NCBI GenBank assembly: GCA_015904055.1
Contig: JABMDE010000090.1
Location: forward strand, 19,166-26,940
Direction: 5' to 3'
Source: Nitrospira sp.
GTDB taxonomy: Bacteria; Nitrospirota; Nitrospiria; Nitrospirales; Nitrospiraceae
Length of the DNA: 7,775 nt
Shown: positions 36 to 7,775 of the stretch, piece after piece
Layout of the letters: the number at the start of each line of letters is the position of its first letter
Numbering within the stretch: the first letter of the stretch is position 1
Notes under the pieces: model-generated
Seen by the model: only the letters and a program-made list of their open reading frames with translations
Databases searched by the model: none
What the model was told of the DNA's origin: nothing
Translations under genes and position numbers: made by a program

Positions 36-803
36 TTACGGTTTTTGCGCAAGCAGCTGTACACTGAGTTTGGCCGCGTGCTCCGGCTTGACCTGGGCAA
101 GGATCGCCGCAGCCGCTTTTGTTTTGACAAGGCGGAGGATTTCGATCGCTTTCTGGTCAGGCATCCGTTCCAGCCGGACTGCCGCATCCTCTGACGGCAT
201 CGCCTCATACATCTTGGCGAGCTGATTCTTCTGCTCTTGCATTTCGGCGAGCTGATTCTTCTTCGCCTGCGCAAGACGTTCCTTGGGCGGCTGTTGATCC
301 GCCTTTGCCCGCACGCTTTCAATCCGTTTTTCCAACGCTTCATTCTTCGCCAAGGCCTTTTCAATCTCGGCCCGCACCATCATAAGACGCTCTTCGGTCT
401 GGCGGACAGCGTCTTCTCGCCGGTCGAGATCGCGCTTTCGCAGATCCAACATCCCGATAACTTCTCGCGGCACATCCACTGCAGGCCCCTGCGCCGGCGG
501 AGCAAGCAGCCGGCTGCTCTCGTCTGATTCTGCTTCTTGCGCATCGGCAGGAACGACTGAGGGAACAGCTTGCACCGCTGCCGTTTGTGCTGGAACCGCA
601 GCCGGCCGTACTTTATCTTTCGGATTATTAGAGGCTTGCCCCAGTTGCACCATGATCCATAAGAGAATCGTGGAGCCAACGACGCCGCCTGCGATCGTCC
701 AGAGCGAGGACCGCCGTTCTGAAGGCGACAGCGCCGCCTTGGACCGTCCGGCACGGCTGAGAAAAATACCATCTCCTGTGGATCGCGCTAATTGTGCATT
801 CAT
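36..803 (-). CDS. MotE-like flagellar protein (membrane anchor, coiled coil, MgtE_N-like C-terminus)
   Basis: 255-residue protein. Seen: a basic N-terminus, one hydrophobic segment at about residues 34-54 (LWTIAGGVVGSTILLWIMVQ), a Pro/Ala-rich linker at about 65-112, a highly charged predicted coiled coil at about 114-195, and a C-terminal helical domain at about 197-252 with the pattern of the MgtE intracellular N domain (MPSEDAAVRLERMPDQKAIE). This architecture is typical of MotE-type proteins encoded in flagellar operons; the rhizobial MotE is a periplasmic chaperone for the motility protein MotC. The role here (stabilising motor or basal-body components) is inferred from architecture and position. 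The ATG overlaps the fliJ stop as ATGA, indicating translational coupling. A 10-residue tandem duplication lies in the coiled coil (residues about 183-202). It could instead be another unnamed flagellar coiled-coil protein. Confidence 0.72.
   Translation of the reverse strand: MNAQLARSTGDGIFLSRAGRSKAALSPSERRSSLWTIAGGVVGSTILLWIMVQLGQASNNPKDKVRPAAVPAQTAAVQAVPSVVPADAQEAESDESSRLLAPPAQGPAVDVPREVIGMLDLRKRDLDRREDAVRQTEERLMMVRAEIEKALAKNEALEKRIESVRAKADQQPPKERLAQAKKNQLAEMQEQKNQLAKMYEAMPSEDAAVRLERMPDQKAIEILRLVKTKAAAAILAQVKPEHAAKLSVQLLAQKP
216..262. repeat. 17-bp direct repeat inside the MotE-like gene
   Basis: The 17-mer GGCGAGCTGATTCTTCT occurs at 216-232 and again at 246-262, exactly 30 bp apart. On the coding strand this gives two consecutive 10-residue units, KNQLAEMQEQ and KNQLAKMYEA. 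It looks like an in-frame 30-bp tandem duplication within the coiled coil. Confidence 0.8.
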
Positions 804-1243
804 GACACACCCCTTCTGGCAGGATGCTGAAACATACGGCCAGCAGCTTCATCCATGGCCTGCTGTTCCCGTCGCTGCAGCTCGGCATCATGCGCCTCCC
901 GCTGCCGTTCGAGAAGGCGATCGAGTATTTTGCGTTCCTGGGTCGCTTCAACAAGACGGGCATGCGCACCAGTCCACACCTCGGTCAGGTGACCGACCGC
1001 GCTGCGCGCCTGTATCAACGCGGCTCGTTGCACATCCAGGCGTCCCTGCCATTCCCACAACGCCTCGATCAGCAGTCCCTGCTCGGTGTGGAGCCGATAG
1101 GCCGCTGTATCCGACTGAATCGTCTCATCAAGCGCATTGCACCGCTGCTCCATGCGAACCAATTCTTGAGTCGCCTTCGCCAGCTCCATCGTGAGCGCTT
1201 CCTGTGCCTGTACCCGTAACTTCCGCAACGAATCGAGTTTCAT
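800..1243 (-). CDS. fliJ: flagellar export chaperone/stalk protein FliJ
   Basis: 147-residue, almost entirely helical and charged protein without membrane segments. Known family role: FliJ is the central stalk of the FliH-FliI-FliJ export ATPase, resembling the gamma subunit of F1, and it helps cycle export chaperones. Sequence support is the family length (about 145-150), an antiparallel coiled-coil pattern, and a C-terminal stretch (ERKILDRLLERQREAHDAEL followed by MDEAAGRMF) that matches the weak FliJ signature of E-K-x-L-E-x-L and a terminal D-E. FliJ diverges fast, so position carries weight: it follows fliI with an ATGA overlap at 1240-1243 and overlaps the next gene the same way at 800-803. 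The three genes are probably translated as a coupled set. No odd features seen. Confidence 0.88.
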   Translation of the reverse strand: MKLDSLRKLRVQAQEALTMELAKATQELVRMEQRCNALDETIQSDTAAYRLHTEQGLLIEALWEWQGRLDVQRAALIQARSAVGHLTEVWTGAHARLVEATQERKILDRLLERQREAHDAELQRREQQAMDEAAGRMFQHPARRGVS

Positions 1244-2550
1244 GCTGCCTGCTGCGCCAAGGCGCGCAGCCCTTGAACCGACGCGCCCAATGCTGCAGAC
1301 TCATCAATCCCCTGCCGAAGATAGGCATTGACGGCCTCTTGGGCCTGGACGGCCCGATCAAGAGTCTTGTTCATCCCCTGCTTATACGCGCCGAGAAGGA
1401 TGAGGTCTTCGGACTGCCGATATCGAGCAATCAATTCCCGAACAGTTCCTGCCGCACTACCATGTTCCCGACCGACGATATCCCGCATCACACGGCTGGT
1501 GCTTTGCAAGAGATCGATCGCGGGAAAATGATTCTGCGCCGCCAACGCGCGTGATAACACGATATGCCCGTCGAGAATCGACCGCGCGGCATCAGCCACT
1601 GGGTCAGTCAGATCGTCTCCATCGACCAACACCGTATACAAACCGGTAATGGCGCCTGCGCCGGGTCCGGTGCCGACACGCTCAAGAAGTTTAGGCAGCA
1701 TGGTAAATACAGACGGCGTGTAGCCTTTGGTCGCCGGCGGCTCCCCGATCGCAAGACCAACTTCCCGCTGGCTGTATGCCAACCGAGTCAGAGAGTCCAT
1801 CAATAAGAGCACTTGCTTTCCCGCATCACGGAAGTATTCCGCCACGGTGGTCGCCACCAACGCCGCGCGCAGCCGCACCAGCGGCGCTTGATCCGAAGTC
1901 GCCACGATAACAATCGACCGTTGGAGTGCGGCAGGCCCCAGATCGCGCTCCAAGAACTCTTTGACCTCGCGTCCGCGCTCACCGATGAGCGCGATGACGT
2001 TGACATCGGCGTTCGTATACCGGCTGATCATCCCTAGCAAGACGCTCTTCCCGACGCCGGAACCTGAGAAGATTCCCATCTTCTGCCCCTGCCCGCATGT
2101 CAGAAATCCGTTGATGGCACGGATCCCGAGATCCAGCGGTGTACGGATGCGCGCGCGCTGCAGCGGGTTGGGTGGAGCGGCATGAAGCGGATATCGTTCG
2201 AGATACGGGACAGCCCCTTTGTCATCGAGCGGGCGCCCGAGCCCGTCCAGAATGCGTCCCAACAGACCGGGCCCGACTGGCAAATGCGCAACCTGGCCGG
2301 TCATGGTTATGAGGCTGCCGGGTCCGATACCCTGCATCTCTCCCAGCGGCATCAGCAACACACGATCGCCACGGAATCCCACTACTTCTGCGGCGATCGA
2401 CCCGCCGCCATCTTCTCTACTAATCTCGCAGAGTTCACCCACCGTGGTCATAGGGGCATAGCCCTCGATCACGAGGCCGACAGCTTGGGCAACGCGCCCT
2501 GAGACTGCGACAGGATCGACTCGATCGAGCAGACGGCTAAGATTCATCAT
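1240..2550 (-). CDS. fliI: flagellum-specific export ATPase FliI
   Basis: 436-residue cytoplasmic ATPase of the flagellar type III export apparatus, related to the F1 beta subunit. It forms a hexamer with FliJ as stalk and FliH as regulator, and helps load and unfold export substrates. Visible motifs: P-loop SGSGVGKS (162-169), family signature ALIGERGREVKEF (187-199), Walker B VLLLMD (247-252), then SLTRLAYSQREVGLAIGEPP (253-272) of the catalytic interface. The N-terminal beta-barrel-like domain is about residues 1-125 and the C-terminal helical domain follows about residue 350. Length is normal. The start lies inside the 3' end of fliH (stop at 2539-2537), a 14-nt overlap if the first of two tandem ATGs is used (2550) or 11 nt for the second (2547). 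The stop overlaps the fliJ start as ATGA. The gene is intact. Confidence 0.97.
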   Translation of the reverse strand: MMNLSRLLDRVDPVAVSGRVAQAVGLVIEGYAPMTTVGELCEISREDGGGSIAAEVVGFRGDRVLLMPLGEMQGIGPGSLITMTGQVAHLPVGPGLLGRILDGLGRPLDDKGAVPYLERYPLHAAPPNPLQRARIRTPLDLGIRAINGFLTCGQGQKMGIFSGSGVGKSVLLGMISRYTNADVNVIALIGERGREVKEFLERDLGPAALQRSIVIVATSDQAPLVRLRAALVATTVAEYFRDAGKQVLLLMDSLTRLAYSQREVGLAIGEPPATKGYTPSVFTMLPKLLERVGTGPGAGAITGLYTVLVDGDDLTDPVADAARSILDGHIVLSRALAAQNHFPAIDLLQSTSRVMRDIVGREHGSAAGTVRELIARYRQSEDLILLGAYKQGMNKTLDRAVQAQEAVNAYLRQGIDESAALGASVQGLRALAQQAA

Positions 2551-3572
2551 TGGCCCTGTTCTTCAATGCACTGCCCAACCGAAACAGCTGAGTGTCCAAT
2601 GACGCGTCGATCACACGATTGGCGGTATGGATGAGACACCCCCCCCCCGCGTGATCGAGGCCATCGGCTCGACTTTTACCGTGAGTGCGAGATCACGCAG
2701 GGCCGCAAGTTCGGCTTGAGCAGATTCCAGCGCCGGCGCATCGGCCGGATGCACCTGAATAACGACGACGCCGGACTCTCGCACCGCCGTCACCGCGGAC
2801 TTAGCTTGCGCCACAATCTGGCCTTTACAGGCGGCCGCCGACTCATGGAGGACTTTCGACGCAATGTGAATAGCCAACGCGGCAATTTCATCTTCCATCA
2901 TCCGCTGAAGAGAAGACTGCACCTCGGCCAGCTTCCGCATCGCACCAGTAAACAGGGTCCGTTCATGCCGGCGTTCCTCTTCCCCACACTGTTGCCCCTC
3001 CTTCAGCCCCCGCTCGAATTCTGTCAAACCGTCCTCTCCCCGTAATGCCCCGTCGTCTCCAAAGGTTTCAAACGGCAGGCTCGACAGATGGAACGCCCCG
3101 GATCGAACAGCCGCATGTTTGAGAACGGTCTGTTCGGCACGCAACCGATGGAGTTCCAGCAGCCGACGCGCTGTCATCAAGACCACACCATTGTCGATGG
3201 GCTTCATCAAAAAATCGCTGGCACCGGCTTTCATGGCGCGCACGGCGAGTTCGACAGTTGCCGATCCTGTCATGACCACCCCAATGATTCGGTGGTCGAT
3301 TGTCAGGGCCTCTTCCAGAACCGCGATCCCGTCCTGGTCCGGCAACGTCACATCGATAAGCATCAGCGCGGGAGCGGACTGTTTCACCATGGCAATGGCA
3401 TCCCGCCCCGATCCCGCAGCCCGAATAGACACCCCTTCAGACCGGAAGAGCTCAAGAAACAAATTCCGGATCTCGGCTCATCGTCATCGACGGCCAAAAT
3501 CGTCCCATGAAGCCGAGGACCTCCCGTCTGTCCGCGAAACGCCTGCGCCGTCATGGTTGCGACAGCCGACAT
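2537..3572 (-). CDS. fliH: response-regulator receiver domain fused to FliH; two apparent frameshifts
   Basis: After correcting two frame breaks this reads as one protein of about 344 residues. Residues about 24-140 are a CheY-like receiver: acidic pocket VDDDE (28-32), phosphoacceptor Asp74 in LIDVTLPD, switch Thr102 in VVMTG, and Lys124 in MKPID. A linker leads to a FliH domain with the glycine-spaced repeat G189-xxx-G193-xxx-G197, a long charged helix, and the C-terminal end GGC..DASLDTQL typical of FliH/HrpE. FliH binds and restrains the FliI ATPase and docks it at the C-ring. Frame break 1: near 3474 one base seems lost (CCGAG where CCGGAG restores E-P-E-I-R-N). Frame break 2: the G10 run at 2639-2648 must be 8 or 11 long to join the true C-terminus ending at TAG 2539-2537; as given, the frame stops at 2613-2611. 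The largest uninterrupted frame is 3462-2611. ATG 3572-3570 directly follows the fliG stop (TAAATG), with GGGAGAGG about 11 nt upstream. Confidence 0.85.
2639..2648 (-). repeat. poly-G tract (10 G on the coding strand) within fliH
   Basis: A run of ten C on the plus strand (ten G in the mRNA) lies in the 3' part of the fliH domain. With ten G the reading frame ends early at 2611; with eight or eleven it continues through the conserved FliH C-terminus to the stop that overlaps fliI. Either a homopolymer length error or a slippage-prone contingency tract. Confidence 0.9.
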
Positions 3573-4565
3573 TTAGACCACTGCCTCTCCCGCGCCGGCA
3601 ATCACAATTCGCCCTTCCTCTTCCAGCTTGCGGCAGACCTTGAGCACATTCTGCTGCGCCTTCTCGACATCGGACACCTTGACAGGTCCCTTTGCCTCCA
3701 TGTCTTCCTTGAGCATTTCGGCGGCGCGGCTTGACATGTTTTTAAAGAATTTCTCCTTAACCTCAGGATTCGCGCCGCGTAGCGCAAGCGGCAGGTCATC
3801 CTTGCTGATCTCCTTCATCAGCTCCTGTATGCCACGGTCGTCTACCTTGATCAAATCGTCAAACACAAACATGAGCGCACGGATGGCATCAGCCAGCGTC
3901 TGGCTCTTCTCCGCGATCTTGGCCATAATTCCGCCCTCATTGGTTTTGTCCATCCGCGTGAGAATTTCGGCCACCACCTCGGCTCCGCCGATGCTCTGTC
4001 CGCCCAATCCCTGGCTTGCCAACAGTGTTTCTTGCAAACTCTGGCTCAATTCCTCCAAGACATCCGGCTGCACATCTTCCATGGTCGCAAGCCGCAACAC
4101 CACATCGCCGCGCATGGCGTCCGGCAGCGCGGCAAGCACCTGCCCGGCCTGATCGCTTTCGAGATGGGCCAGAATGACCGCCACCGTTTGTGGATGTTCG
4201 ATCTTCATGATTTGCGCGATGCTCTTTGCATCCACCCAGCGGAGCGCTTCCAATCCTGGATAGCTTTTCCGGGTCATCGATTCGATGATGCGCGCCGCTT
4301 TCTCGGGGCCCAACGCCTTGATGAGCACGGCCTTGATGTATTCTTTCCCCTGGAACTGCACCTCCCCCGTCGAGCTCGCCGCTTTGAAGTCCAAGATGAC
4401 CGCATCTTCCTCATCCCGTGAAATCTGCGCCGTACCGCTCATAGACGCCCCCAGCTTCTTGATCTCTTTGGGATCAAGCTGCTTCAAGACCTGTGCAGCT
4501 GCTTCCTCGCCGATCGCGCGGAGGAGAATCGCCGTCTTCTGCTCACCAGTTAAATTCTTCGCCAT
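3573..4565 (-). CDS. fliG: flagellar motor switch protein FliG
   Basis: 330-residue C-ring protein that sits on FliF and transmits torque from the stators, working with FliM and FliN. Seen: N-terminal FliF-binding helical domain (about 1-95), the EHPQ motif at 123-126 within IEHPQTVAVILAHL (FliM-binding middle domain), a Gly-rich linker around 187-194, the MFVFDDL motif (232-238), and the charged torque helix following it (DDRGIQELMKEI, with K and D/E residues toward the stator face). Length is normal. I start at ATG 4565-4563 (MAKNLTGEQKTAILL), which matches the family N-terminus; an upstream in-frame start at 4598 would add eleven residues inside fliF and is less likely. The gap to the fliF stop is 2 nt (TGAGCATG), so the two are likely coupled. 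Its stop abuts the next start. Intact. Confidence 0.97.
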   Translation of the reverse strand: MAKNLTGEQKTAILLRAIGEEAAAQVLKQLDPKEIKKLGASMSGTAQISRDEEDAVILDFKAASSTGEVQFQGKEYIKAVLIKALGPEKAARIIESMTRKSYPGLEALRWVDAKSIAQIMKIEHPQTVAVILAHLESDQAGQVLAALPDAMRGDVVLRLATMEDVQPDVLEELSQSLQETLLASQGLGGQSIGGAEVVAEILTRMDKTNEGGIMAKIAEKSQTLADAIRALMFVFDDLIKVDDRGIQELMKEISKDDLPLALRGANPEVKEKFFKNMSSRAAEMLKEDMEAKGPVKVSDVEKAQQNVLKVCRKLEEEGRIVIAGAGEAVV

Positions 4566-4567
4566 GC

Positions 4568-5988
4568 TCAGCCGTTCGCAGAAGAGCTCTTCAACCACTG
4601 TTTCACGACGACAGCCGTCGTGTCAGGATTCTTTCTGGCCATATCGATGATTTGAGCGCGATCGGGAGCTCCGGGGATCGCGGCAACCGCCGCCGCCGCC
4701 GAAAGAGGCAACGGCGCAGATCCACCCGCCTCGGGCTCCTGCTTGTCAGCGGTGCCCAGCATCGCGATCAATGGACGAACGACGAACAAGAGGATCATAA
4801 GAAAGAGGAGGGCCCCGACCCCGTAGCGCAGATAGGGCAGCCATGGGTTCGGCCCGTCCGATGCGGCTTCAGCCGCCGCCGTCGGCAGTTCGTCCGGCCC
4901 TAAGCCGAATTGGACATTGACCACTTGTCAACCAACACGGCCACCGACAACTTCTTGATCGCTCCGACCGGCTCCACGATTTTCGACACCGTGCGGCTGA
5001 TCTCATAGTTGACGGTCTCATTCTTCGTCAGACTGTTGTTCGAGCTGCTCTGCGCCGGCTCCTGATCCGTGCCCGGCGGCACATTCGATTGCACGCCTGG
5101 CACACCACCGGATACCCCGTTCACACCGCTGGACTTTTCTTGGCCGCGTTGCTCACTTCTGGCCACCTGGCTGTTGGGATCGTACCGTTCTTCCGTGGTC
5201 TCTATTTTGCGGAAATCGACCAGGCTGGACACACGCACGACCGCTTTATTGATTCCGACGATCCGTTCCAGCATCGTTTGGATGCGGGTTTCGATATCCT
5301 TCTCGATATTGCGCTGATACTCAAGCTGCGAGTTCGTCAACCCGGCCGTCTCATCCTCTGCAACCGTGCTGGACAGCAAGCGGCCATGGCCGTCGACGAT
5401 GGTCACGTCACGGGCCTGCAATCCTTCGACGCTGCTGGACACCAAGTGAATCACACCCTGCACTTGCGATTTCGTCAGCGCCTGTCCGTTGCGCAGCGCC
5501 AGGATGACGGAGGCTCGTGCTTTGTCCTGCTCATTGGCAAACAGCCGCCGCTCCGGCAAGGCCAGATGAACACGCGCCCGCTCGACCTCCGGCATTTGCG
5601 CGATCGTCCTGGCCAACTCGCCTTGCAGCGCACGGCGGTAATTGAGTTTCTGGACGAACTCGGACATGCCGATCGAGGTGCGGTCGAAAATCTCGTAGCC
5701 GACTCCCCCTCCATGCGGCAAGCCCTGCGTCGCCAGTTGCAACCGAAGGTCATGGACCTGCGCACTGGGCACCAGCACCGTCGCGCCTCCTCCTGTCGTC
5801 TCATACGGAACCTTCGTTTCTTTGAGCTTGTCGATGATCGCCGCCGCATCTTCACCGTTAAGATTCGTGAAAAGAACCTGCATGTCAGGCTGCTGCGTCC
5901 ATAAGGCCAATGCGATCAGGCCCGCCACTGACCCGGCCAGGGCCAGCAGAATGATCATCCGTTGATTGATTGAAAATTGTGAAAACAT
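4568..5988 (-). CDS. fliF: flagellar MS-ring protein FliF, interrupted by an internal deletion/frameshift
   Basis: FliF forms the inner-membrane MS-ring on which rod, switch and export gate assemble. The first frame (5988-4900) encodes TM1 (residues about 11-30), the ring-building domains with QVLFTNLNGEDAAAI, QGLPHGGGVGYEIFDRT, NYRRALQGELARTI and VHLALPERRLF, a Ser/Asn-rich loop, and KLSVAVLVD ending at residue 354. The second frame resumes at about 4927 with VVNVQFGLG, a second TM (LRYGVGALLFLMILLFVVRP) and the FliG-binding tail IIDMARKNPDTTAVVVKQWL, stopping at 4568. The span is 1421 nt, not a multiple of three. Between VLVD and VVNVQF the family normally has about 45-50 residues (the second half of the third ring-building domain), missing here. 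As written, translation ends at 4900 after eight foreign residues, without TM2 or the FliG site. Start ATG 5988 has AGGCAGG upstream. Confidence 0.92.
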
Positions 5989-6020: not shown

Positions 6021-6326
6021 TCAAATCTGCATCCGTTGAATTTCTTCGTAGGCCGTCACCAGTTTGTTTCTGATCTGCATCATCAACTGGAAGGACACAT
6101 CGGCCTGCTGCAACGCGACCATCGTGCGGTGAATGTCCTGCGTCTGGCCCGTCATCAGCGCATCGACGGCCTGGCCAGCTTGGAGCTGCATGTCATTGGC
6201 CTTGCCGACAGCCGTCTTCAGTGAATCTAGAAACCCTCCGGCCTCAGCCGGCGCCTTTGCAGAGCCCAGGGACGGCGCAGCAGGAACGGCGGGAACTGCA
6301 GGTGCAATGCCTGGAATAGGACTCAT
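6021..6326 (-). CDS. fliE: flagellar hook-basal body protein FliE
   Basis: 101-residue small protein that joins the MS-ring to the proximal rod and is among the first export substrates. The N-terminus is Pro/Ala-rich and disordered (residues about 1-29). The conserved part begins at GGFLDSLKTAVGKANDMQ (30-47) and ends with the family signature DVSFQLMMQIRNKLVTAYEEI (about 76-96). ATG 6326-6324 is chosen because GGGAGG lies 5 nt upstream (6337-6332), within the last codons of flgC, and it gives the usual FliE length; the in-frame GTG at 6359 would add eleven residues overlapping flgC. The start lies 2 nt beyond the flgC stop. The fliF start follows after 32 nt. Intact. Confidence 0.95.
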   Translation of the reverse strand: MSPIPGIAPAVPAVPAAPSLGSAKAPAEAGGFLDSLKTAVGKANDMQLQAGQAVDALMTGQTQDIHRTMVALQQADVSFQLMMQIRNKLVTAYEEIQRMQI

Positions 6327-6328
6327 CA

Positions 6329-6778
6329 CTACCTCCCGATCTCCAACGCCTTGTTCCACATCGCGCGCGTGGCATTGATGGCCTGCACGTTGGCCTCATA
6401 GGCCCGTGAGGCGCCCATCATATTGACCATTTCCTCCATCACGTTCACATTGGGAAGACGCACAAACCCTTTCGCATCGGCGTCAGGATGATGCGGATCA
6501 TAAATCTGCTGGCCAGGCTTTCTATCTTCGACCACTCTGGCCACCGAGACGCCTTCAAGCGCATGGGCCGACGGACCGGCGGCCACCTGGTGGAACGCCC
6601 GCTGGAATGCACTGGGCACCGGCGTCGACCGGAACACAACATCCCGGCGTTTATAGGGACCACCTCCCGCCGTTTTTGTCGATTGCGCGTTGGCAAGATT
6701 GCTGGCAATGGCGTTGAGCCGGTGCCGTTGGGCATCGAGGCCTGAGACTGACACCGCTAGGCTGTCTGACAATTCCAT
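6329..6778 (-). CDS. flgC: flagellar proximal rod protein FlgC
   Basis: 149-residue proximal rod subunit, exported through the flagellar T3SS. It has the rod/hook N-terminal motif SGLDAQRHRLNAIASNLANA (12-31) followed by a TKTAGGGPYKRRDVVF stretch, the mid-region YDPHHPDADAKGFVRLPNVN characteristic of FlgC, and the C-terminal rod helix with EEMVNMMGASRAYEANVQA. The start is set by an excellent Shine-Dalgarno (GGAGGTG, 6789-6783) four to six nt upstream. Unusually, about 100 nt separate it from flgB. The stop TAG (6331-6329) is followed at once by fliE. Intact. Confidence 0.97.
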   Translation of the reverse strand: MELSDSLAVSVSGLDAQRHRLNAIASNLANAQSTKTAGGGPYKRRDVVFRSTPVPSAFQRAFHQVAAGPSAHALEGVSVARVVEDRKPGQQIYDPHHPDADAKGFVRLPNVNVMEEMVNMMGASRAYEANVQAINATRAMWNKALEIGR

Positions 6779-6879: not shown

Positions 6880-7290
6880 CTATCGCGCGTCTCGAATTGC
6901 GCTCAACAGTCCCTGAAACTTCTTGGCCAGTATCGTCGCAGCCGCGTTGTACTGCATCGCGTTGTCGGACAACTTTGCCATCTCGAGCTCAAGGTTGACC
7001 GAATTCGCATCGAGCGGAAGATCGCCCGCAGGCACCTCGCTCAACTTTCCCGTCACGGCCTGCACTCCCCGAGCCCCATGAAGTCCGAAGTGGCGCGACT
7101 GTGTCGCCGCCATGACGACCGGCAGCCGGCCTTGGTGAGCCGCGCGCAGCTGATCCATGAAATTCATGTCAGAAGCGCGAAAGCCTGGCGTTTCTTCATT
7201 GGCCAAATTCGAAGCAATCACGCGCTGCCGCGCGCTACGGAGATCCAAGTTCCGCTGCAACAATTGCATGGTCCGGTCGAAGATCCTCAT
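6880..7290 (-). CDS. flgB: flagellar proximal rod protein FlgB
   Basis: 136-residue proximal rod subunit secreted by the flagellar export apparatus, assembled between FliE and FlgC/FlgF. It shows the rod-protein N-terminus RQRVIASNLANEETPGFRA (21-39; the A-N-x-x-T-P-G-F motif is the family hallmark), a variable middle, and a C-terminal helix (NLELEMAKLSDNAMQYNAAA). I start at ATG 7290 (MRIFDRTMQLLQRNLDLRSA) because AAGGA lies about 9 nt upstream and the N-terminus matches the family; an upstream TTG at 7320 would add ten unlikely residues at the predicted mRNA 5' end. It is the first gene after the sigma-54 promoter. Intact. Confidence 0.96.
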   Translation of the reverse strand: MRIFDRTMQLLQRNLDLRSARQRVIASNLANEETPGFRASDMNFMDQLRAAHQGRLPVVMAATQSRHFGLHGARGVQAVTGKLSEVPAGDLPLDANSVNLELEMAKLSDNAMQYNAAATILAKKFQGLLSAIRDAR

Positions 7291-7466: not shown

Positions 7467-7775
7467 TCACAATGTCGTCATCGACAATGGCTTCCCATCG
7501 GTTCGATACTCACGGAGCTTGTTCCGCAACGTGCGGATGCTGATACCGAGCTCCTTCGCGGCATGCGTACGATTGTCTTTCACCCGCACCAGGGTCTTAA
7601 AGATCAGATCCCGCTCCATTTCCCACAGAGAGCCATTCCCCGGCTGCTGAACGACCAACGGCACGGCAGCATCCCGGACTTCCACCGGGCAATGTTCCGG
7701 AAATATCGGACCATGACCCGCCAGTAAGACCGCCCGCTCCATCACGTTCTCCAACTCGCGGATGTTGCCCTTCCA
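7467..7775 (-). CDS. sigma-54-dependent flagellar transcriptional activator, C-terminal part (cut by window edge)
   Basis: 102 residues remain. The fragment opens in frame at the conserved end of the AAA+ activator domain (WKGNIRELENVMERAVLLA; the family usually has WPGN, so Lys replaces Pro). After a linker of about 30 residues it ends with a Fis-type helix-turn-helix (EMERDLIFKTLVRVKDNRTH then AAKELGISIRTLRNKLREY). Such proteins hydrolyse ATP to remodel sigma-54 polymerase at -24/-12 promoters. Its place beside a flagellar sigma-54 promoter suggests an FlrC/FleR/FlgR-type flagellar regulator, but the N-terminal sensory domain is outside the window, so the subtype cannot be set. The stop TGA is at 7469-7467. 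Confidence 0.93.
   Translation of the reverse strand, partial: WKGNIRELENVMERAVLLAGHGPIFPEHCPVEVRDAAVPLVVQQPGNGSLWEMERDLIFKTLVRVKDNRTHAAKELGISIRTLRNKLREYRTDGKPLSMTTL

Follow-up and report, generated by a model that had tools for sequence, protein, structure and literature searches.

A fusion of an NtrC-type receiver domain to FliH, the regulator of the flagellar export ATPase, in Nitrospira and related genomes

The window analysed here is a stretch of 7,775 nucleotides from a Nitrospira sp. assembly (GCA_015904055.1, contig JABMDE010000090.1), the minus strand of which carries a flagellar operon consisting of the end of a sigma-54 activator gene, flgB, flgC, fliE, fliF, fliG, fliH, fliI, fliJ and a further open reading frame (Table 1). 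The operon is Nitrospira-like, with fliH situated between fliG and fliI. The open reading frame that follows fliJ (36-803, minus strand) gave a weak match to MgtE_N, below the cut-off, and may encode a MotE-like protein.

The fliH gene of the window has no single intact ORF. According to the first-pass annotation, the frame 3462-2611 (minus strand) ran uninterrupted from a receiver domain into a FliH domain, and this frame is indeed open for 283 codons and has two Pfam matches, to Response_reg at residues 4-92 (E 1.8e-17) and to FliH at residues 169-250 (E 3.6e-8), but it is not the whole protein, since the gene extends over three frames. Its score against FliH PF02108 is 33.8 bits at a cut-off of 24.1, compared with 58.3 bits for the FliH of the intact relative L001 (Nitrospira sp. 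bin.260, genome G001; 343 aa, 94% identical, both domains above the Pfam cut-offs), and the GxxxGxxxG repeat FERGLKEGQQCG is present in it. In tblastn, residues 1-33, 34-309 and 309-342 of L001 each map to a different frame, the reading frame being interrupted near 3471 and again near 2644. The receiver's first strand and its acidic pair fall outside the long frame, in the one starting at 3572. The residues initially listed as Asp74, Thr102 and Lys124 are present, although these numbers are one above those of intact L001 (Asp73, Thr101, Lys123). Because the fliF gene of the window is disrupted as well, sequence errors are the likely cause of the breaks in both genes.

Table 1 Features of the window on the minus strand; L001 is the intact relative from Nitrospira sp. 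bin.260
Feature	Position	Strand	Evidence
C-terminal end of FlgR-like sigma-54 activator	7467..7775	-	Pfam HTH_8, AAA_lid_14; 91% identical to L001 NtrC
flgB	6880..7290	-	86% identical to L001 ORF; Pfam Flg_bb_rod
flgC	6329..6778	-	95% identical to L001 ORF; Pfam Flg_bbr_C
fliE	6021..6326	-	87% identical to L001 ORF; Pfam FliE 1.5e-26
fliF, broken	4571..5988	-	Residues 355-411 of the relative unmatched, frame changes; Pfam YscJ_FliF
fliG	3573..4598	-	Pfam FliG_N/M/C
Receiver-FliH fusion gene fliH	2543..3572	-	Three frames; tblastn of L001 FliH; Pfam Response_reg and FliH
NtrC-type receiver domain	3157..3509	-	About residues 22-138 of intact relative; Pfam, solved relatives, AlphaFold2 model of P0001
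Receiver acidic pair Asp-Asp, upstream frame	3483..3488	-	Sequence; alignment to L001
Phospho-acceptor Asp codon	3352..3354	-	Asp in 72/72 distinct fused FliH
Switch Thr codon	3268..3270	-	Thr 70, Ser 2 of 72
Conserved Lys codon	3202..3204	-	Lys in 72/72
Alpha5 and NtrC-type linker helix (RLRxENxVL)	3103..3192	-	30-residue helix in model; Arg 72/72
Flexible linker, conserved hydrophobic segment ending in Phe	3022..3102	-	Phe 69/72; pLDDT < 50 at P0001 152-165
FliH coiled coil and C-terminal domain	2543..3021	-	Pfam PF02108; helix 178-241 and C-domain in model
fliI, export ATPase	1240..2550	-	Pfam ATP-synt_ab 2.6e-86, T3SS_ATPase_C
fliJ	800..1243	-	Pfam FliJ 2.7e-13

A search of 5.8 billion proteins returned 388 matches with E ≤ 0.001 among 7996 scored candidates, and the best 120 of these 388 homologues (283-350 aa) all carry both Pfam domains, so chance can be excluded as the origin of the combination. 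The recurrence of the Response_reg plus FliH architecture, for which the first-pass annotation had suggested looking in domain databases and in related genomes, was thereby established for these best 120. The intact relative P0001 (337 aa) is 94% identical over 96% of the query, and its cluster holds 67 member sequences. With a divergent fused protein as the query, the 120 matches listed comprised 45 with both domains, 4 with FliH alone and 71 receiver proteins, mostly NtrC-family activators.

Of the 295 genomes in the phylum of G001, 162 gave a FliH match; 100 of these 162 places were fetched and, together with L001, L002 and 32 short loci, made up 134 loci encoding 122 distinct FliH proteins, of which 65 are fused. 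At the level of the family, FliH was found in 129 of 175 genomes; among these 129, 71 were fused and five (G145, G062, G222, G387 and G388) receiver-less on inspection of the frames, the other 53 being known by open frames of 338-476 aa. Elsewhere in the phylum, none of the 54 genomes inspected outside the family had a receiver in the FliH frame; fused proteins are ≈ 340 aa long, against mostly 200-280 aa for the receiver-less open frames of the phylum. Two non-family loci among the 54, L101 and L125, encode a FliH or FliI that is unusual and possibly come from stray contigs. At genus level, FliH was found in 68 of 79 genomes with frames of 295-678 aa, and the 295-aa frame ends at a contig edge, yet contains receiver sequence. 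One genome, G349, has fused fliH on two different contigs (L211 and L212), perhaps as two copies or in a mixed assembly.

In three other phyla (those of L006, L036 and L004, with 398, 247 and 297 genomes), where 5-8 candidates were scored per genome, all the matches listed for profile A1 were receiver-only (within positions 4-188 of the 348-position query, the best at E 7.1e-44); as a positive control, five divergent true fusions score 1e-126 to 1e-140 with the same profile, and both domains are spanned. A tblastn search of plasmids gave no record covering 80% of the query. It had initially been considered that related genomes might have a separate receiver gene and a separate fliH, or that a stop and a start might lie between the two domains; in the receiver-less loci, the interval from fliF to fliH contained no detected receiver gene, and the intact relatives read through.

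The active site of the receiver was compared in 72 distinct fused FliH proteins. All of them have the phospho-acceptor Asp and the conserved Lys, and the switch position is occupied by Thr in 70 and by Ser in two. The first acidic residue is D/E in all 71 readable receivers; the second position is Asp in 61 of the 71, Ala in seven, His in two and Gly in one (L118, L121 and L146 being among these ten), and these replacements may weaken Mg2+ binding. The features by which membership in PF00072 is recognised, namely the Asp, the Lys, the Thr/Ser, the acidic pair and the receiver fold, are found in the FliH receiver. At the same time, its mean pairwise identity is 57% vs 75% for the FlgR receiver of the same 60 loci, and the preservation of the active site while the whole receiver diverges suggests selection for phosphorylation. 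The earlier proposal of a real, conserved fusion with a putatively phosphorylation-competent active site is borne out by the homologues, in which both Pfam domains occur and the phosphorylation residues are kept.

The label "CheY-like" that had been given to this receiver should be replaced. When solved structures are ranked by sequence match, NtrC1 and chains of the NtrC family come first and CheY chains lower; the matches by sequence and fold include NtrC1, NtrX, DctD and other receivers, several of which align into the helix that follows, and the receiver tree groups it with a sigma-54 activator. By these comparisons, the FliH receiver is assigned to the NtrC type, not the CheY type. An AlphaFold2 model of P0001 made from 79 sequences (mean pLDDT 83.5, pTM 0.42) places the receiver at residues 18-120, followed by a helix (121-150) continuous with alpha5, a flexible linker (152-165, pLDDT < 50), a long helix (178-241) and then the FliH C-domain; at this low pTM, the placement of the receiver relative to the FliH half in the model is tentative.

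The number of gains was addressed with trees of the neighbouring sequences. In a careful search on 35 hand-chosen genomes with FliI and the FliH C-domain, the receiver columns being excluded, the 22 fused members form one clade (92/98, 92% of bootstrap trees). A tree of FliI only, with 93 rows, places receiver-less family members among the fused ones, which corresponds to two changes. So, one gain of the fusion is favoured by the sequence trees but not proved.

The nearest relatives of the receiver were found close to fliH itself. In a first receiver tree (near-identical FliH receivers dropped, 71 to 37), the FliH receivers lie on one branch (87), with an activator of genome G029 as their sister (98). 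This sigma-54 activator, which heads the flagellar cluster, is named NtrC2 here; the order in the G029 cluster is NtrC2, a TPR protein, a histidine kinase, a FlgR-like activator and flgB. The TPR protein between NtrC2 and the flagellar histidine kinase has 726 aa (L205:4760-6937, minus strand). Close orthologues of NtrC2 (E 3.5e-160 or better) are present in 37 of the 60 family genomes that were searched, among them all five without the receiver. Both genes were found in 33 genomes; in 32 of these, NtrC2 is located ≈ 10-12 kb upstream of fliH in the same orientation on one contig, and in the 33rd they are on different contigs; four genomes have NtrC2 and no FliH match.

In a careful tree of 105 receivers (near-copies dropped, NtrC2 thereby from 32 to 24; 43 FlgR rows reduced to the first 20), FliH and NtrC2 are joined with 100/99 and FlgR is separate with 96/88, while the support of the FliH receiver clade alone is moderate (82/86). 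The NtrC2 rows fall on two branches, so that the FliH receivers may be either a sister group of NtrC2 or nested in it. In all 24 genomes with the three receivers, that of FliH is closer to NtrC2 than to FlgR (40.5% vs 29.4% identity), and in the same 24 genomes the helix after the receiver is on average 33% identical to that of NtrC2 and 5% to that of FlgR; therefore, the fusion carried over the receiver together with its signalling helix. The other regulator considered as the receiver source, the FlgR-like one beside the kinase, is ruled out by the trees and the identities. The first-pass annotation had suggested that a kinase linked to the flagellar sigma-54 activator might be used; this gains indirect support from the apparent donor, which is a sigma-54 activator encoded in the same cluster, although the donor is NtrC2 and the histidine kinase lies beside the FlgR-like regulator. 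Taken together, the fusion and the kinship of its receiver with that of NtrC2 are nearly certain on the sequence evidence, and most simply the receiver would have been gained by copying that of NtrC2, apparently once.

In 95 of 102 loci, flgB is preceded by genes for a histidine kinase and for a receiver-bearing sigma-54 activator, the seven others being mostly on short contigs; because the pair is found in loci fused or not, it predates the fusion. No dedicated kinase gene adjoining fliH was found. The alpha1 helix of FlgR is near-invariant and not common to the FliH receiver, which does not make the kinase of the operon itself an obvious partner of the latter.

Compared with canonical FliH (Salmonella; PF02108, NF004270/PRK05687), the fused protein has the same coiled coil and C-domain, and its gene is part of the same order fliF-fliG-fliH-fliI-fliJ, whereas the Salmonella protein has no receiver. 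With the NtrC-family sigma-54 activators (NtrC1, DctD, NtrX and NtrC2) it has in common the receiver, the alpha5/linker helix and the phospho-acceptor site; their output is an AAA+ and a DNA-binding domain, while here the output is FliH. The kinase and activator pair preceding flgB is comparable to FlgS/FlgR, FleS/FleR and FlrB/FlrC, the activity of which depends on the MS ring, rotor and export gate (PMC7064773). These regulators act on transcription, whereas here a receiver is located on an export component as well, and the FlgR receiver, unlike that of NtrC2, is not its nearest relative. A signalling input directly on the export ATPase complex is likewise found in P. fluorescens, where FliI is a c-di-GMP effector, as stated in a review (PMC12564702); there a second messenger binds FliI, while in Nitrospira a receiver domain is on FliH. 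Each domain is known singly; what is specific to this lineage is their combination in one protein.

In most descriptions, flagellar export is controlled by transcription, by chaperones and, in one case, by c-di-GMP. With a receiver on the ATPase stator, Nitrospira and its relatives offer a natural experiment that bears on a direct action of two-component phosphorylation on the export machine. The N-terminus of FliH would carry a working-type NtrC receiver with its signalling helix, and dimerisation of FliH would place two receivers side by side on the coiled coil. In NtrC1 and DctD, the dimer contacts of the receivers switch upon phosphorylation; phosphorylation of the Asp may change receiver pairing here as in such activators, and this change could be relayed via the linker helix to the FliH N-terminal region, setting how well FliH2-FliI docks at the C-ring/export gate. 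Such a phospho-switch on FliH dimers, linking docking of the export ATPase to flagellar two-component signalling, has in our estimate an even chance of being correct. A kinase addressing the flagellar sigma-54 activators would then tune both flagellar transcription and export. More tentatively, one kinase output may be split between NtrC2 and the receiver copy on FliH, so that transcription and the docking or activity of the export ATPase would be phospho-coupled; if true, the stator of the flagellar type III export machine would itself be a two-component response regulator, and such signalling would reach export directly, at the post-translational level. The traced origin leads to predictions on the kinase and the dimer interface, with the receiver-less sister genomes as controls.

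The same kinship can be read in the opposite direction, with the FliH receiver as a phosphate sink or reporter that competes with NtrC2 for the same kinase; the amount of FliH, free or in the export complex, would then feed back on sigma-54-dependent transcription, and information would run from assembly to transcription, the reverse of the phospho-switch. The relationship to the NtrC2 receiver and the kept active site agree with this, as does alpha1, which is nearer to that of NtrC2 than to that of FlgR in 17 of 24 genomes and tied in six. However, alpha1 has drifted (mean identity 37%), and its same-column co-variation is 0.50 with NtrC2 vs 0.41 with FlgR, compared with 0.44 vs 0.41 outside alpha1, which is no clear excess. 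The residues of FliH and NtrC2 agree 26/26 in one alpha1 column, a column picked afterwards that reflects three independent changes only (p 0.25), and co-evolution of kinase-facing residues with NtrC2 is accordingly not claimed. Moreover, the linker helix is kept, though a sink would not need it, and we consider both the sink or reporter role and the reversed flow of information improbable.

Alternatively, the receiver fold may be mainly a protein-protein interface for docking or dimerisation, for example towards FliM/FliN, where it would stand in for the FliH N-terminus, and phosphorylation would then be of secondary importance. FliH is a dimer, the N-terminus of which (Trp7/Trp10 in Salmonella) binds FliN and FlhA (PMC9114704). 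The stretch after the receiver has its own conserved segment, with Phe in 69 of 72. With an ungapped profile built on 59 receiver-less N-termini, the 72 linkers score 0.35 vs -1.46 (sd 2.98) for shuffles at width 10, and -2.96 vs -3.25 at width 14. By eye, a canonical FliH docking motif seemed to be retained after the receiver, but the profile is not clearly above shuffles; the motif may persist there, or the receiver may, as the first-pass annotation had it, have replaced the docking N-terminus. Docking may thus have been taken over by the receiver, and two FliM/FliN-type genes are present in each of the nine genomes checked. Against this, the retention of Asp, Lys and Thr/Ser in 72/72 is unexpected for a pure scaffold, and the receiver is NtrC-like, not CheY-like, which makes an interface role unlikely. 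The frame-broken copy of the window and the five family genomes without the receiver would suit an ordinary domain fusion of little functional effect, kept by descent and represented in the window by a sequencing artefact or pseudogene, but this is very doubtful given that the fusion was verified in 71 genomes, that Asp and Lys are invariant, and that there is an intact 337-aa relative with a 67-member cluster.

The architecture has already been named by annotators, as NCBI record P0096 is entitled "putative Flagellar biosynthesis protein FliH with response regulator receiver domain (Modular p...", and no study of the receiver-FliH fusion was among the papers listed in searches of the open-access literature. 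Additionally, some fused FliH proteins, including P0103 and P0064, have a match to PF00213, and the database name of P0103, F0F1 ATP synthase subunit delta, is likely a misannotation.
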